From IMG/VR virus record IMGVR_UViG_3300034119_000919, positions 1 to 24,081 of that record: DNA of 24,081 nt, one strand, 5' to 3'. The position numbers and the translations under genes were made by a program. Under the pieces are notes generated by a model. The model saw nothing but the letters and a program-made list of their open reading frames with translations. It did no database searches and had not been told where the DNA came from. Origin of the DNA: a virus. Shown here piece after piece: positions 4,424 through 10,478 of this stretch (positions within the stretch are counted from its first letter, which is position 1; each line of letters opens with the position of its first letter).

Positions 4424-6604
4424 TTAAACTCGTCCAGTCACTTCTTCAAAGCTAACCCCAGTTCTAGTAGCAACGAATGTAAGAGTTACATAGTTGATAG
4501 ACTTGGTGGGCTTTAGGAAAATGTCTGCTCTAAATTCATTATTATCAATAGCATCTGGAGTGTTATTAGTTTCGTCACAGATCACCCGGAAATCAATCAG
4601 ACCTCGTTTTGCCTGAACATCCCTTAGATAGGGCTCAACAATGTTGATAAAGTTTGCTCTGGTAATGGCATCATTCAGCTCAAAGAGTTGAGCCTGAGCA
4701 GTTCTTTCAAGAGCCTGTTCAACAGTAAGGAATAGCTTTCTGACATTGATACGATCAAATGCTGAGGCAAATCCAAGAGCAGTTCTGTCACCAAACAGAA
4801 GAGCCCCGATACCAGGCTGGTTTACAATGGAATTGATCCGTAGAGGATACAAACGATCTCTCTGGGCCTTGTTTGGATTGTAGGCCAGTTTGATAGCATT
4901 GTTTAGGATACCTCTTTGCTGACCAGCAGGAGAGAACCAAGGATAAAGTTCAATCGCGGTTCTTACCATTAGACCTGCAACGTCAGCATTGCAAGGAATG
5001 TAACGGAACTTGTTATTGAAACGATCAAAGGTGTACTTATAACCGCTATCAAAAACAGCATAGGAAGAAGAACTCAATGGGGAGAAGAACTCAATAATCT
5101 CATCGGTTTGCTGATTTGAGTCACTGATGTCTACTACATCGCCCCGATGAGGAGAAATCACTGCAATACAATCCTTACGATTATTCGCAATTGAAATCAG
5201 TTCTTGGGCCTTTGCCTGTGATTCAAATTTATTACCAAGACCAGGACCCATAATTAGATAATCAACCTCAATTTCATCTCGGTTAGAGAAGAGGCGATAT
5301 GCACTAACAAGACCACCCAGAGTTGCGGTGTAGCCATCAGTTGGTGTGTAGTTCTTACCACCAGAGAGATTGTAAGTAACGTTTCCTAGGGCACTGAAGG
5401 TCTTGTCTTGGGCAGGAAGATTCCATTGACCCTGTGAAGTGGAAAGACCAGTAAAACCAGAGGCAAATCCAGTTTGTACTACTACTTCATTTGGATTAGA
5501 ATTGTCTGAAGGGTTATCGCCAGCATAAACATAATTGGAGAACTGGGCGATGTAAATCTTCCAGAAATTCTTCTGCGCAGGATTTACTGCAGAAATTGCA
5601 TCAGATGCCTTGGAGAGGAACAGATGCTTCTCTATCAGATTACCTTGAATTCCGGTTACGCTACCGCTATCGTCAACAATGGCAACATGAATGGAATCAT
5701 TTTTGGCACTACGCTCTAGGGCAAACTGAGTAGTGGTTGGTTTAGGAGCAATAGAACTCCATAGAATTCGGCTATTATCCAGCTCAAGGAATTGCTCATC
5801 ATACCAGTCTTTTACTGAACTAGCAGCAAGAGTATGAGTAGTGGTAGCAGAACCTGAGCTGTTTACAACTGAAATGGTATTGCCAGCCAGAATAGAAGCC
5901 GCCTGATTTCTTTGCTGATAAGTTACTGGGATATCTACAGTAGTACCAGAGGCAACAACCGAGGTGATTTTTACGTCAAGAGTGGAAGCCCCAACTCCGG
6001 TAATAATACCCTTCAGGTGGCCATTAAAGAGGCTAGTTGACCCGGCTCCGGCAATGACCTGATTAGTAAGAGCAACTGTTACACCAAAACCAACTGATGC
6101 GGCAGATCTGGTAGAAGAGTTTACAGTCAGAATTTGGTCAGCTTTGTCATCAATCACACAAACTTTTAGGCCATTTGCCCAAGTACCAGGAGTCTTGGCA
6201 GCAAAGACGTAGTTGGCCAGATCATCATCATAATTTAGTTCATAATCATCAAAGTTTTTGATTTTTAGAGTCGGTTCTCCGGCAGTAGAAACACCAGCAG
6301 CATTGCGAATTGCATTCGCAGTAACCAGATTGTCGTCATCAACTCTGGCTACTTTAAGAATACCGCCATAAGATAGATAAGAGGATGCTGAAATCCAATA
6401 TTCATATTGAGAGTCTTCATTTTTTGGTTTACCAAAAACGTTGATAAGTTCCTGTTCTGTGGTGATGTCTACTGCTTCTTCGACAGGACCAATTGGAAAA
6501 GGTCCAGCAATAGCGCCAATATTATCTAAAATATTGTCAACACGACCTACTGTGAGATCAACTTCCCTAATTAGAACCCCAGGAGATAATTGAGGTGTAG
6601 CCAT
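4424..6604 (-). CDS. gp18: Tail sheath protein gp18
   Basis: This 726-residue protein (T4 gp18 is 659) forms the contractile sheath around the tail tube. The N terminus MATPQLSPGVLIREVDLTVG and the C-terminal block from about residue 674, VICDETNNTPDAIDNNEF followed by SINYVTLTFVATRTGVSFEE, are the conserved polymerisation regions of T4-like sheaths. Between about residues 100 and 330 lies a variable, Ser/Thr/Val-rich beta insertion, corresponding to the surface-exposed protease-resistant domains of T4 gp18. Sampled blocks are richer in GC than neighbouring genes (one 60-base block near 4690 counts 43%), which may reflect codon selection for high expression. It follows gp17 and precedes gp19. 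An AAGGGAG ribosome-binding site and a CTAAATA element are upstream. Confidence 0.97.
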   Translation of the reverse strand: MATPQLSPGVLIREVDLTVGRVDNILDNIGAIAGPFPIGPVEEAVDITTEQELINVFGKPKNEDSQYEYWISASSYLSYGGILKVARVDDDNLVTANAIRNAAGVSTAGEPTLKIKNFDDYELNYDDDLANYVFAAKTPGTWANGLKVCVIDDKADQILTVNSSTRSAASVGFGVTVALTNQVIAGAGSTSLFNGHLKGIITGVGASTLDVKITSVVASGTTVDIPVTYQQRNQAASILAGNTISVVNSSGSATTTHTLAASSVKDWYDEQFLELDNSRILWSSIAPKPTTTQFALERSAKNDSIHVAIVDDSGSVTGIQGNLIEKHLFLSKASDAISAVNPAQKNFWKIYIAQFSNYVYAGDNPSDNSNPNEVVVQTGFASGFTGLSTSQGQWNLPAQDKTFSALGNVTYNLSGGKNYTPTDGYTATLGGLVSAYRLFSNRDEIEVDYLIMGPGLGNKFESQAKAQELISIANNRKDCIAVISPHRGDVVDISDSNQQTDEIIEFFSPLSSSSYAVFDSGYKYTFDRFNNKFRYIPCNADVAGLMVRTAIELYPWFSPAGQQRGILNNAIKLAYNPNKAQRDRLYPLRINSIVNQPGIGALLFGDRTALGFASAFDRINVRKLFLTVEQALERTAQAQLFELNDAITRANFINIVEPYLRDVQAKRGLIDFRVICDETNNTPDAIDNNEFRADIFLKPTKSINYVTLTFVATRTGVSFEEVTGRV

Positions 6605-6609
6605 TTGTA

Positions 6610-6616
6610 CTCCCTT
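6610..6616 (-). promoter_or_regulatory. Ribosome-binding site for gp18
   Basis: The minus strand reads AAGGGAG, 5 bases before the ATG at 6604. Together with the gp19 site it marks the two most abundant tail proteins as the genes with clear Shine-Dalgarno sequences. Confidence 0.65.
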
Positions 6617-6634
6617 TATATACTTGCTATTAAT

Positions 6635-6641
6635 TATTTAG
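6635..6641 (-). promoter_or_regulatory. Late-promoter-like CTAAATA upstream of gp18
   Basis: On the minus strand CTAAATA lies in the 50-base gap between gp17 and gp18, 30 bases before the gp18 ATG. This is one of the longer gaps in the window and is very A/T-rich. The element is the same heptamer seen before gp8, gp20 and the 49-residue gene. A dedicated late promoter for the sheath gene is expected biologically. Confidence 0.55.
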
Positions 6642-6654
6642 AAAAAAGGAGAGC

Positions 6655-8760
6655 TTAATAACTATAATCCCACAAAGAAACAAGTTCATCCGGAGAAACT
6701 ACATTCCAGAGTAAATCTTTTTCAACAAAGGTCTCAGGCTCTATTCCGGTTTCTATAAAACCTATTGGTAAAATACTGTCATCTTCTTCACGCTCTTCAT
6801 TTTCTTTAAATAATCTTTTTCTTATATCGTCATCAGTGATTTCTCGGAAGTATTCTTGGGTGGAAGCCCAGGAAAAAGTAACAAGACAATCAACCAAGTC
6901 GTCATTTTTCCCTTCTTCGGCCTTAAAGGTATTTGATTTTTGGACAAAGGTGAAGAGTTCGCTGATCGTGTCATAATCTTCAATGATTAATTTATCTGAT
7001 TCAAGTAACATTTTTAAATTGAGAGATCCGATTTTCTTCACATTAGCGGACATTTTTACACCATAATCAACTCTGTCTCCACCAAATCCCTGCCCCAAAA
7101 CCTGTCCCTTTCTTCCTTTAATAAAACAAGTCAATAGATTTGGATACTCAAGATCATAATGAAGTCCAGTTGCGATCTGATCACCCACATCATTTGTTTC
7201 ACAAAGTACAAATGCCTTATTATAATGTAAACCAGCATCTTTAATGATATATGGAAACATAATTGGTTTAATTTGATTGTCTCTATATTTTGCTACTAAT
7301 TTATAAGACATTTTCGTTATGTCAATAACTGTAAATACAGAATAATCAAGATCAACTCCTCTTGCTACGTCAACATTAATCATATATTGATGGCCTTCTA
7401 TGGGATCTTCATAAATATCCAGACCTTTTTTAGATCTTATTGGGGATTTATGAGTCATTGATGACAGTTTTGATGCTGAAACGAGGGTATTTGATGATCC
7501 CAGGAAAGAACATGAAAATTCTTGATCAAAGGCTCTTGCCCCTACTTCTCCACCACCCAAGTTTGCGATGGTTTTTATTTTCCATTTTTCATCTCTTCCA
7601 GGAACATCATTCCAATTAATTTCAAGAGGAACATAATCGTTTAATTTTTTTATTGCCTCATCCCACATTTTATAGAAATAATTTAATCCCTGGGGAGTGC
7701 TGCATATGATAACTTTAGTTTCTTTACCAGAAGAAATAGTAGGATATACGGAATTCATAAAATTGACAGCTATATTATTTGGAACGAAAGCAAATTCGTC
7801 TAGAAAAATAATATTATAAGAACCACCACGAACCGATGATGCTGAGGTAGAGGCTGTGATGATCTTAGAACCATTATCTAATTCCAATGATGTTTTATTC
7901 CAGGACTTAACTCCAGGTTGCATCCAGTTTGGTAAATTTTCAAATGATACTTGAAGCCTAGAGAGAATATCCTTTGCTGATGATGCTTTGTTTGCAAGAA
8001 TGGCTATGGATACTTTTTCATTAAAAATAGCATAATGAAGTAGGAAAGAAACGCTAGTAGTACTTTTCCCAGAATTAATAGTTGGAATAAAATTCTTTCC
8101 ACATAAAAAAGAGTGGTCTTTATTTTCTACTTCAATACAGGAAACACTAGTTGGTTTAACTTCTTTTATTGATTTTAATTCAATATTTTCATTCCAATTA
8201 TTTACTAATGTATTAAATTTTGTTCTTTGTAGAGTGATTTTTTCTTTAATACAAGAAATCTGCTCAGCAGTTAATACAATTGGTTTTTCATTTATATAAA
8301 CTCGCCAGAAATGATCCTTGTCACAAACAATATCTTCCTCAAAATGTTGACCTTTAAAGGATAATTTATAGCACTTTTCTGTGTTTTTATAACTTACTTT
8401 GTTTAATACTTTTGTTTTATTTCCACTTAGATCATAAACAACATCCCCTATTTTTAGGTCCTTAATTTTGGTATAACCATTTGGTGTTGGAATTGGGGTA
8501 TTATTTTCTAATGGTTGTCTAGGTAGTTTACAAATGGTAAAACGGTTCTCATGAAAAGTTCTGAGCATCTTTTCTTGAAAAGGCCACATATCAAATGGTA
8601 CAAGGCCATCATCAACGTTAACAATTTTTATATAATTTTTGGCAAAATAAACTGGATCAACCGCACATTTTGCTAATTCAAATAATTGTTCTTGAGAAAA
8701 CTCATTGGCAACATTCGCTCTTTTTAAGAGCGGATTACCCATATAATGTTTATCAGACAT
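6655..8760 (-). CDS. gp17: Terminase large subunit gp17, intein-interrupted precursor
   Basis: This is the ATPase/nuclease motor that cuts concatemeric DNA and pumps it into the head through the portal. The precursor is 701 residues. Removing a 147-residue intein (83-229) leaves 554, a normal size for this family (T4 gp17 is 610). After splicing the ATPase Walker A reads KLPRQ joined to SGKSTT. Walker B is IIFLDEF (317-323, D321 and E322), followed by a CSTPQGLNYF coupling motif (353-362). The C-terminal nuclease shows its acidic residues in INVDVARG (D464), LCETNDVG (E521) and KNDDLVDC (D620, D621, D624). The gene starts 9 bases after the upstream 418-residue gene with an A/T-only leader and no Shine-Dalgarno sequence. 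Function depends on splicing, since the intein splits the nucleotide-binding loop. Confidence 0.97.
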   Translation of the reverse strand: MSDKHYMGNPLLKRANVANEFSQEQLFELAKCAVDPVYFAKNYIKIVNVDDGLVPFDMWPFQEKMLRTFHENRFTICKLPRQPLENNTPIPTPNGYTKIKDLKIGDVVYDLSGNKTKVLNKVSYKNTEKCYKLSFKGQHFEEDIVCDKDHFWRVYINEKPIVLTAEQISCIKEKITLQRTKFNTLVNNWNENIELKSIKEVKPTSVSCIEVENKDHSFLCGKNFIPTINSGKSTTSVSFLLHYAIFNEKVSIAILANKASSAKDILSRLQVSFENLPNWMQPGVKSWNKTSLELDNGSKIITASTSASSVRGGSYNIIFLDEFAFVPNNIAVNFMNSVYPTISSGKETKVIICSTPQGLNYFYKMWDEAIKKLNDYVPLEINWNDVPGRDEKWKIKTIANLGGGEVGARAFDQEFSCSFLGSSNTLVSASKLSSMTHKSPIRSKKGLDIYEDPIEGHQYMINVDVARGVDLDYSVFTVIDITKMSYKLVAKYRDNQIKPIMFPYIIKDAGLHYNKAFVLCETNDVGDQIATGLHYDLEYPNLLTCFIKGRKGQVLGQGFGGDRVDYGVKMSANVKKIGSLNLKMLLESDKLIIEDYDTISELFTFVQKSNTFKAEEGKNDDLVDCLVTFSWASTQEYFREITDDDIRKRLFKENEEREEDDSILPIGFIETGIEPETFVEKDLLWNVVSPDELVSLWDYSY
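8074..8514 (-). other. Class 3 mini-intein inside gp17 Walker A motif
   Basis: In-frame coding segment for residues 83-229 of the gp17 precursor. The N-terminal splicing block is PLENNTPIPTPNGY then IKDLKIGDVVYD; residue 1 is proline, not Cys or Ser. Block B is CDKDHFWRVY with Trp at precursor position 152. The C-terminal blocks read SVSCIEVENKDHSF (Cys208) and GKNFIPTIN (Thr227, terminal Asn229), followed by Ser as the +1 residue. The non-nucleophilic first residue with Trp, Cys and Thr at block B, F and G positions is the signature of class 3 inteins, where the block F Cys starts splicing. The residue before the terminal Asn is Ile instead of the usual His. At 147 residues there is no room for a homing endonuclease and no LAGLIDADG or HNH motif is seen. 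GC is about 27% by hand count against about 34% in sampled extein blocks. Confidence 0.93.
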
Positions 8761-8769
8761 AATAATTAA

Positions 8770-10026
8770 TTAATTTTTACAATTCCAGCGGCGTCTTGCT
8801 TTACAAATTGGTTTATCTTGAGTTTTAGAGCAACTAATATTATGCATTTCTTGCTGACCTTTGGATCTTGTGCAATAATTAGTCCTTCTCTGCATTCTTT
8901 TACCAGTTGGATTTTTTTCTGTAACAGCAGTTTGTAATTTAGAACCTGGATTTTCTCTACGGTAAGTATTTACGGCTTTCTGACTCATTCCATCAACTCT
9001 GTCTTTTTTATTAACTTTCTGCCAGTCTTCCTTAACCTGAACAATCGGAGTACTAGAATCCATCTCACAAGGAACATAAGAAATTACTCTAGCTTCTGGA
9101 TAAATCTGATTTACCGCATAATCAATCTCATTTCTTTTTGGAGTTCCAAGTTGTGGGAAGAACATTTGAACCGATAGATGCTTTCCTCGCCAATTGACCA
9201 AAACTCTAAGAAGCTGACCAGTTTGCATTGGAAGGCGAGTTGTCGCTTCACTCACCGGAACACAATTAGGAACTTTTTTACCCCTTTTCTTTTTAAATCC
9301 GACCATTTCATAACCTTTCCAACAAGGATCCTCATCTTTGGTCATGTATTTCTTAGCCTCTTCCATCTCAACACTTTTTTCCATCTTATTGAGATGGGTA
9401 TAATAATCAGGAATTTCTTCTAAGTGATGAAGAGCAATAATTTCGGCCTCCCCCTTATCAGTGGTGTGCTCCATTTCAATTTTGATTCCTTTTTTTAATT
9501 GCTTTTCAAGGTATTCAACAGATACTTTATGTTTTTTTGCAATTTTATCTAAGGATTTTGTTTTCTTGATATCTATTCCAGGCTTATCGCCTAGCATTTC
9601 AGAAAGGATTTTATCTACAAGAGATGTTTCTTCTTTGACAATCGGTGGAAGTTGAGTTCCCAATTTTCCTTTGGCCACTTTAGCTTCATTAGGATTTGGA
9701 GATCGTGTTAGTCCTTCTATTTTTTTTGTCCTGTTTGCGCTAGATTTTACTTTTTCATGCTTTTCTTTATTAATAGTGAATGAAGTATTCTCTTCCATTT
9801 TTACATCAGAAGCCAAATAATCAGCAATAATATCCAAATAATCACTCGATTTTGTGAGTTTCATCTGCACCCAGGCTGGAAGTTGCATATCCGGTTTTTT
9901 AATAATCTTCCGAAGTTTTTCTAAAGATTGCTCTATTTTATCCATCTCCACTTTAACCATATACCCTTCATCATCTAATTTTTTTCCTGACTGAATTTCT
10001 TTATGGTCTTCTGAAAGATTTTTCAT
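8770..10026 (-). CDS. Mosaic phage protein (DUF5661- and DUF6321-like), 418 aa
   Basis: The protein of unknown function is built of modules. Residues 22-75 are a helical segment with LPAWVQMKLTKSSDYLDIIA, a pattern seen in marine phage head-related proteins. Residues 135-216 resemble DUF5661, with IAKKHKVSVEYLEKQLKKGI and an EHTTDKGEAEIIALHHLEEI block ending in PDYYTHLNKME. Residues 230-260 carry DEDPCWKGYEMVGFKKKRG and VPNCVPVSE. Residues 266-333 hold LVNWRGKHLSVQMFFPQLG. Residues 346-416 resemble DUF6321, with AYRREN-type YRRENPGSKLQTAVTEKNPT and a basic Cys-containing end (C385, C399, C408, C416) finishing RRRWNC. The whole is lysine-rich with a strongly basic C terminus. It overlaps gp16 by 4 bases (ATGA) and lies just before gp17, so it may take part in packaging or be a virion passenger; both are inference. 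Family names are from memory of motifs. Confidence 0.85.
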   Translation of the reverse strand: MKNLSEDHKEIQSGKKLDDEGYMVKVEMDKIEQSLEKLRKIIKKPDMQLPAWVQMKLTKSSDYLDIIADYLASDVKMEENTSFTINKEKHEKVKSSANRTKKIEGLTRSPNPNEAKVAKGKLGTQLPPIVKEETSLVDKILSEMLGDKPGIDIKKTKSLDKIAKKHKVSVEYLEKQLKKGIKIEMEHTTDKGEAEIIALHHLEEIPDYYTHLNKMEKSVEMEEAKKYMTKDEDPCWKGYEMVGFKKKRGKKVPNCVPVSEATTRLPMQTGQLLRVLVNWRGKHLSVQMFFPQLGTPKRNEIDYAVNQIYPEARVISYVPCEMDSSTPIVQVKEDWQKVNKKDRVDGMSQKAVNTYRRENPGSKLQTAVTEKNPTGKRMQRRTNYCTRSKGQQEMHNISCSKTQDKPICKARRRWNCKN

Positions 10027-10478
10027 TGTTGATCCTTGTTCTTCTTATTATTTATGGTTTTATTAGGCTTAATTTTCAATTCATTTTTTAATAAATTCAA
10101 TACTTCACTTGTTGTTCCAACAAAAAGTGCATTATTGGTTACATTTCCAGAAGTTTTCTCCTCTTCAAGATCACGAAGTTTCTTCTGGTTTTCCATAAGT
10201 TTTTCTGTAGCATCCGCAACAGTTTTGATTAATTGTCCAACCACTTCAAAAGATCTTGCTGAATCAGTTTCTTGTGCTAATTCTAAAACACTATTAATCG
10301 CTTCTTGTCCCTTTTCGACTAGGGACATTAATGTGGCCCTAGAATACTCATAGTCTGCTGTAATATCAGAAGAACCCTTGACTATTGACTTGGGTTCTAC
10401 CTTTTCAATTTCTGTTGAAACAACCTCGCTTTCAATTTCAAAAGTGTCATTAAGAGCCTGGAATTTTTTAGTTGCCAT
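10023..10478 (-). CDS. gp16: Terminase small subunit gp16
   Basis: This 151-residue protein (T4 gp16 is 164) forms an oligomeric ring that regulates gp17 and helps recognise DNA for packaging. The alignable core is DYEYSRATLMSLVEKGQEAI (42-61), then the helix-turn-helix-like coiled pair ARSFEVVGQLIKTVADATEK (74-93) and LMENQKKLRDLEEEK, then NVTNNALFVGTTSEVLNLL (112-130). This matches the T4 small terminase order of DD-Y-x-x-x-R, two long antiparallel helices, and an NATVFMGSP-type motif. The N terminus (1-40) is acidic and the last 20 residues are Lys/Asn-rich. It starts 2 bases after the stop of gp15 and overlaps the next gene by 4 bases, indicating translational coupling with the inserted 418-residue gene instead of directly with gp17. 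Confidence 0.92.
   Translation of the reverse strand: MATKKFQALNDTFEIESEVVSTEIEKVEPKSIVKGSSDITADYEYSRATLMSLVEKGQEAINSVLELAQETDSARSFEVVGQLIKTVADATEKLMENQKKLRDLEEEKTSGNVTNNALFVGTTSEVLNLLKNELKIKPNKTINNKKNKDQQ
10049..10056 (-). promoter_or_regulatory. Possible late promoter CATAAATA before the 418-aa gene
   Basis: The minus strand reads CATAAATA, matching the T4 late element TATAAATA at seven of eight positions. It lies 22 bases before the ATG at 10026, inside the end of gp16. Similar octamers also occur inside coding sequence (for example around 11561 and 21898), so this one could be chance. Confidence 0.3.

Follow-up and report, generated by a model that had tools for sequence, protein, structure and literature searches.

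The gp17 gene of the window and its insert

The window, that is, the whole stretch of 24,081 nucleotides that was analysed, holds a structural-gene module of a T4-like cyanophage, with genes for the terminase small subunit, gp17, the tail sheath, the portal, and baseplate wedge and connector proteins, each of them on the minus strand. Its gp17 was recognised by Pfam (Terminase_6N, E 5.1e-20; Terminase_6C, E 8.8e-11) and by PHROG (terminase large subunit), and the nearest gp17 relative in the phage collection is that of Synechococcus phage B23 (Kyanoviridae), with a C-extein identity of 74.5% and a gene order next to gp17 that matches the window's. A 418-residue protein with DUF5661 and DUF6321 is encoded between the terminase small and large subunits (8770-10026, minus strand), and a gene of 376 residues occupies the corresponding position in B23.

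The gp17 frame carries a block of 147 residues that interrupts the Walker A motif between LPRQ and SGKST, and without which the joined exteins form a protein of 554 residues. The preliminary description had placed this block at 8074-8514 (147 codons between LPRQ and SGKST), and its location, its length, the numbering of Trp152, Cys208, Thr227 and Asn229 and the joined product of 554 residues were all found to be exact. The features referred to below, in which a hyphen within a motif marks an insertion junction and L-numbers denote the loci compared, are as follows.

10023..10478, minus strand: terminase small subunit (gp16), upstream of gp17 (PHROG 445, E 8.2e-44)
6655..8760, minus strand: gp17, terminase large subunit precursor, 701 residues (Pfam and PHROG)
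8515..8760, minus strand: N-extein, 82 residues, ending in LPRQ (alignment against the uninterrupted gp17 of L022)
8074..8514, minus strand: predicted class 3 mini-intein, 147 residues, in frame between LPRQ and SGKST, gp17 residues 83-229
8512..8514, minus strand: Pro1, non-nucleophilic first residue of the intein
8371..8373, minus strand: intein Cys48, which matches Cys48 of the class 3 DnaB intein of M. smegmatis in the alignment and is present in 7 of 7 aligned versions
8305..8313, minus strand: block B His150 to Trp152 (HFW), intein His68 and Trp70
8194..8286, minus strand: short linker in the place of the LAGLIDADG domain of endonuclease-bearing relatives (from alignment; boundaries approximate)
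8137..8139, minus strand: block F Cys208 (intein Cys126), the predicted nucleophile at the branch point
8113..8115, minus strand: block F His216 (intein His134)
8074..8082, minus strand: Thr227-Ile228-Asn229, end of block G (intein Thr145 and Asn147), the penultimate residue being Ile, not His
8071..8073, minus strand: +1 Ser (Ser230), with which the Walker A part of the C-extein begins, predicted to act as the second nucleophile
8062..8067, minus strand: Lys-Ser junction, the vacant GK-S site, where relatives carry a second, endonuclease-bearing class 3 intein
6658..8073, minus strand: C-extein, 472 residues, beginning with SGKSTT

The insertion thus precedes the SGK residues and does not lie directly after the Walker A lysine, the GK-S junction being vacant in the window. 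Pro1 is kept in 7 of 7 aligned versions of the mini-intein, so that position 1 offers no Cys, Ser or Thr nucleophile. The +1 nucleophile, which in class 3 inteins is Ser or Thr and rarely Cys, is Ser in the window and in L002-L007 and Cys in L008-L012; the penultimate residue is Ile in the window and Met in L008-L012, the His that is usual but not obligatory in class 3 inteins being absent. A search of the mini-intein against Pfam and NCBIfam at E up to 1 gave no LAGLIDADG or other endonuclease match.

Relationship to class 3 inteins

When the insert was compared with PDB sequences by phmmer, the class 3 DnaB inteins of M. chimaera and M. smegmatis came first (E 1.2e-10 to 2.8e-10), with matches from residue 4 or 5 to residues 145-147, whereas the class 1 intein gp41-1 matched more weakly (E 1.1e-4) and over residues 3-89 only; an engineered class-3-like variant of gp41-1 reached 2.8e-6. 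The curated intein models miss the insert, as Hint_2 (the best Pfam model, E 0.0057) and NCBIfam intein_Nterm (E 0.025) both stayed below their cut-offs. Class 3 inteins are defined by a Trp-Cys-Thr signature in the excerpted texts of PMC5222942 and PMC7891396, and Trp70, Cys126 and Thr145 of the insert align with Trp B:12, Cys F:4 and Thr G:5, also against 6rix and 6bs8. All 20 aligned inteins retain the His and Trp of block B, the Cys of block F, the Thr of block G and the terminal Asn; most of the non-mini rows had been chosen by patterns requiring some of these residues. The penultimate His occurs in all 15 other aligned inteins as against Ile or Met in the mini-inteins, a contrast that is overstated because the row-picking patterns asked for THN. 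In the excerpts of PMC7891396, AceL NrdHF, an efficient intein with a demonstrated class 3 mechanism, also does without this His. The mini-intein keeps the block F His, and the GK-S inteins of L008, L010, L011 and B23 show the reverse: they retain the penultimate His and have Lys or Glu in place of the block F His.

A structure of the mini-intein was predicted from ten window and IMG/VR sequences with a mean pLDDT of 70.5 and a pTM of 0.64, a moderate confidence overall that drops below a pLDDT of 50 at the C-terminal junction and in the outermost flanking residues. Foldseek, the scoring of which uses sequence as well as fold, placed class 3 DnaB chains (6bs8, 6riy, 6rix; E 3.5e-9) in the top seven PDB rows for this model, and the class 3 intein AceL NrdHF (6zgq) ranked 47th (E 1.1e-3), after many class 1 inteins. 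A prediction of the double insert described below, built from three sequences, had a mean pLDDT of 38 and was discarded.

P-loop inteins are common. The mycobacterial class 3 DnaB mini-inteins (M. smegmatis DnaBi1, 6bs8; M. chimaera DnaB1, 6rix and 6riy) share with the gp17 mini-intein the Trp-Cys-Thr residues and an equivalent of Cys48, are of similar size (chains of 139-146 residues versus 147) and, in the case of M. smegmatis, likewise lie in a P-loop without an endonuclease. They differ in their host protein, in a penultimate His versus Ile here, and in sequence, the identity in a structural alignment being 25-27%. The LAGLIDADG intein at GK-S or GK-T of T4-like cyanophage gp17 (B23 and IMG/VR relatives) occupies the same gene and loop with the same class 3 motifs, but lies three codons downstream, is 327-331 residues long and contains LAGLIDADG_3 in every copy scanned for it. 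The terminase inteins of RaK2, fENko-Kae01 and kvi (Krischvirus) also bring class 3 motifs into the gp17 Walker A, yet stand at GK-T and measure 329-342 residues; the Hint and LAGLIDADG domains of the RaK2 terminase are already in print, without a class assignment in the excerpted text (PMC5259590). Finally, the mycobacteriophage insertions TerL1-a and TerL1-b occupy two sites one residue apart in a terminase P-loop, but belong to the Terminase_1 family, and the presence of both in one protein is not described in the excerpts of PMC5050341.

Distribution in relatives and the second intein

In the first IMG/VR scan the block was found, unchanged in length and boundaries, at 13 of 15 loci (L002-L014), 11 of which hold it at full length, L013 being cut at its start and L014 retaining the last 32 residues only. 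This recurrence with constant length and boundaries argues that the insert is more than a chance event. Eight distinct full-length sequences are known, the window's included; seven of them were aligned, and the other six are 72-99% identical to the window's. L002-L007, which belong to the window's species or one very near to it (intein identity 98-100%), carry the mini-intein alone, as does L012, and in L014, cut at its start, the mini-intein end is followed by SGKSTT. The comparison of the extein with uninterrupted gp17 proteins that had been suggested beforehand yielded two empty alleles reading LPRQCGKSTT, L022 and L073, which are 80% and 77% identical to the window's joined exteins. In four comparisons of the window with relatives, dN was 0.16-0.20 and dS 1.1-2.4 for the mini-intein, against 0.13-0.14 and 1.5-2.1 for the extein. 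A dN so far below dS indicates purifying selection on the mini-intein; with dS near saturation the ratios are rough, and they support purifying selection and an old divergence and no more than that.

In a 249,820-bp record of the window's species the mini-intein profile matched once, at the mini-intein already described. Among 110 distinct gp17-like open reading frames, 87 have an empty loop, 9 an insert at RQ-X, 4 an insert at GK-X and 10 are unclassified, although most of these loci come from a scan with an intein-free stretch and the samples therefore give no frequency of occupancy. An endonuclease-bearing ancestor at LPRQ-X was found neither among 28 loci of a wider viral scan (12 with the mini-intein, 16 in other contexts) nor among the 77 stretches matched in one scan of genome contigs, none of which proved to be a relative; both scans would have missed distant relatives because they used two short patterns.

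The usual P-loop intein site, GK-S/T, lies three codons downstream of the mini-intein site, and the class 3 inteins of B23, RaK2, fENko-Kae01 and kvi stand there, after the Walker A lysine. Identity of the mini-intein site with that of the B23 intein was considered and rejected, as the translated B23 protein shows its insertion at CGK-TTT, and a tblastn match to B23 covers residues 1-147 of the query although the insertion site differs. A scan with the GK-S intein of L008 found 104 IMG/VR relatives, of which the best 80 were kept; among the 69 of these that could be parsed, all stood at GK-S/T and five also carried the mini-intein. In the 11 unparsed loci the C end was always followed by Ser/Thr-Thr-Thr, and the N-side GK junction was seen in seven (L230, L238, L239, L240, L242, L244, L245), the N side of L175, L176, L196 and L197 being out of view. 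LAGLIDADG_3 was present in 7 of 7 GK-S inteins scanned (L008, B23, L182, L205, L238, L177, L243).

Both inteins occur in one open frame in five of the 13 mini-bearing contigs (L008, L009, L010, L011 and L013), counting L013, which begins inside the mini-intein, and L008 and L009, whose gp17 proteins are identical and may come from one phage. The layout is LPRQ, 147 residues, CGK, 327 residues, STT, so that two class 3 inteins are 9 bp apart. A third intein, VVS-CVTKD...FLGHQ-TPN, is present in L008-L010 and L013 (in L008 at 5798-7114, 439 residues).

A single gp17 clade thus holds every state, namely empty, mini-intein only, endonuclease intein only, both, and both with the third. In the gp17 extein trees the window lineage (mini-intein), B23 and L173 (GK-S only) and L073 (empty) are interleaved, as are L172 (GK-S only), L011 (both), L022 (empty), L012 (mini-intein) and L008-L010 (all three), with moderate support (69-84) at the deepest interleaving nodes. 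Such interleaving of occupancy states suggests that intein presence in gp17 has probably changed repeatedly. The 32-residue mini-intein end of L014 is 97% identical to the window's; its C-extein is just 74-83% identical to the window's at first, then switches sharply about 540 nt in and is from there 96-100% identical to that of L011. L014, or L020 (IMGVR_UViG_3300007165_000109), hence reads as a gp17 mosaic of a window-type mini-intein end and an L011-like C-extein. This fits recombination carrying the mini-intein allele. As the contig is short, with the intein right at one end, and as the stretch of C-extein ahead of the switch reaches only the identity given above, it may also reflect an unseen donor or a contig chimera.

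Across the splicing blocks, the identity of the mini-intein is 42-45% with four cyanophage-type GK-S inteins and 41-42% with the RaK2 and fENko inteins. In a tree of 34 inteins, obtained from 90 sequences thinned at 85% identity and with deeper nodes poorly resolved, the cyanophage-type GK-S inteins form their own clade (96.4/99) with the mini-intein outside it; KS_L235, whose block B reads DHSW and escaped the search pattern, was omitted. Of the inteins collected for the class 3 tree, L154, L156 and L159 (start not clear) and L056 (begins with Cys) were also omitted. That clade speaks against the mini-intein being a recent copy of its GK-S neighbour, and the mini-intein is probably a separate class 3 lineage.

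Splicing, persistence and alternative explanations

Taken together, the homology, the aligned Trp-Cys-Thr residues, the predicted fold and the empty alleles bear out the initial proposal that a class 3 intein occupies the Walker A loop, and the insert is very probably a class 3 mini-intein able to splice itself out of the gp17 precursor. Along the class 3 splicing pathway set out in the excerpted PMC5222942 and PMC7891396, intein Cys126 would attack the Gln82-Pro83 bond, the chain would then pass to Ser230 and Asn229 would cyclise, so that LPRQ is joined to SGKST and Walker A is restored. It may fairly be inferred that the unspliced motor cannot bind ATP, because the insert splits Walker A. 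The mini-intein may persist because any inexact loss of it would ruin an essential ATPase, and homologous recombination across gp17 could carry it from one phage lineage to another.

That the insert would instead be retained in the mature motor as an extra, stable domain finds a reason in its in-frame position only and is hardly credible in view of the full intein motif set, the fold match, the empty alleles and the splitting of the nucleotide-binding loop. A decayed intein that no longer splices and leaves gp17 non-functional in the lineage is very improbable: Ile does replace the penultimate His, but the absence of that residue from the efficient AceL NrdHF (PMC7891396, excerpts), a dN well below dS, a frame open in the copies seen and invariant catalytic residues all argue against decay. 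Regulation of splicing, for example a redox response through Cys48 and Cys126 that delays the active packaging motor, is also unlikely. Such a gate could draw on the invariance of Cys48 in the seven aligned versions and on its M. smegmatis DnaB counterpart, which under oxidation forms a splicing-inhibiting disulfide with the catalytic Cys (PMC6195587, excerpts). However, Cys occupies position 48 in 16 of 20 aligned inteins and all M. smegmatis Cys48 substitutions reported in the same excerpts abolish splicing, so that Cys48 may be structural, and many of the related gp17 proteins sampled have an uninterrupted Walker A loop (87 of 110 distinct open reading frames), which argues that a gate is not generally needed. 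In the excerpted text of PMC5050341, five representative inteins from mycobacteriophage terminases or terminase-like proteins are described as splicing readily when placed in a reporter. Nothing in the present evidence favours the packaging timing gate of the preliminary description over plain splicing.

It is conceivable, though on balance doubtful, that the mini-intein is a passenger of the homing GK-S intein, or that it alters the target site of the latter and protects the allele. The 9 bp spacing falls inside most conversion tracts, both inteins share five of 13 mini-bearing contigs, all occupancy states meet within one gp17 clade, all seven GK-S inteins scanned have a LAGLIDADG domain, and the homing of adjacent MCM inteins is subject to mutual interference (PMC10643990, excerpts). 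Third positions are identical between L008 and L011 at 120 of 147 sites in the mini-intein and 279 of 327 in the GK-S intein versus 291 of 460 in the C-extein (Fisher p 2.9e-5 and 3.6e-12 against the C-extein), and those of L010 and L011 agree (126/147, 277/327, 284/460). Against this, the mini-intein showed little or no excess of similarity over the first 100 C-extein codons, with p values of 0.42 (L008/L011), 0.009 (L010/L011) and 0.02 (L011/L012), the deep pair of the window and L011 also gave 0.02, so that part of the signal is baseline, and the empty allele L022 shows a similar fall in identity to L011 along the C-extein, whereby ordinary recombination explains the identity pattern too. 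Moreover, L012 lacks the second intein and its mini-intein is equally close to that of L011 (121/147 versus 293/460), the lineages are few and the tests treat sites as independent. The reading of the identity gradient as a homing tract is accordingly weakened by the gradient seen against the empty allele and by the first-100-codon comparisons.

Inteins in terminases, inteins in P-loops and class 3 mini-inteins are all known kinds, and no report of the mini-intein site, or of two inteins in one P-loop, was found in the excerpted open-licence literature. Within the material searched, two arrangements are new: a class 3 mini-intein placed ahead of the final Walker A residues in gp17, and a pair of class 3 inteins three residues apart. 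The closest conceptual precedent is the study of neighbouring MCM inteins (PMC10643990, excerpts); example spacings of 48 and 85 residues between inteins in one protein are given in excerpts of PMC8966425, and the 9-bp tandem is the shortest intein spacing among the descriptions found. As a tentative and rather unlikely proposal, the Walker A loop might host the class 3 pair as a unit with CGK between its members, the mini-intein hitchhiking or shielding and the motor staying inactive until both splice; the window's phage would then represent the mini-only state of the cycle. How inteins without endonuclease persist and spread is a question not settled in the field, and a gp17 clade with all states, a 9-bp tandem and intact empty alleles provides natural material on passenger homing, shielding and interference. 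The tandem also raises the question of two class 3 reactions three residues apart.

Several further inserts were observed. The third insert of the tandem-bearing loci starts with Cys, ends with Gln and shows LAGLIDADG-like stretches by eye, and so appears class 1-like beside two class 3 inteins. Within the Walker B of gp17, L031 (5280-5693) holds a 138-residue insert, LDE-CVGENTEI...SHN-CAF, that looks like a class 1 mini-intein. The gut phage locus L038 (MT835601.1) carries a 141-residue class 3-like mini-intein at SGK-...-SS in an SMC-like P-loop protein that is not terminase-like. In L183, L187 and L243 gp17 is divided between two frames that flank a small gene, which in L183 encodes a GIY-YIG domain (Pfam E 1.5e-6); the N-terminal half closes with what looks like a brief intein start, CLGG(D/E)T..., the C-terminal half opens with an intein-like stretch, and the split genes also carry the GK-S class 3 intein. 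This arrangement presumably resembles the atypically split AceL-TerL intein.
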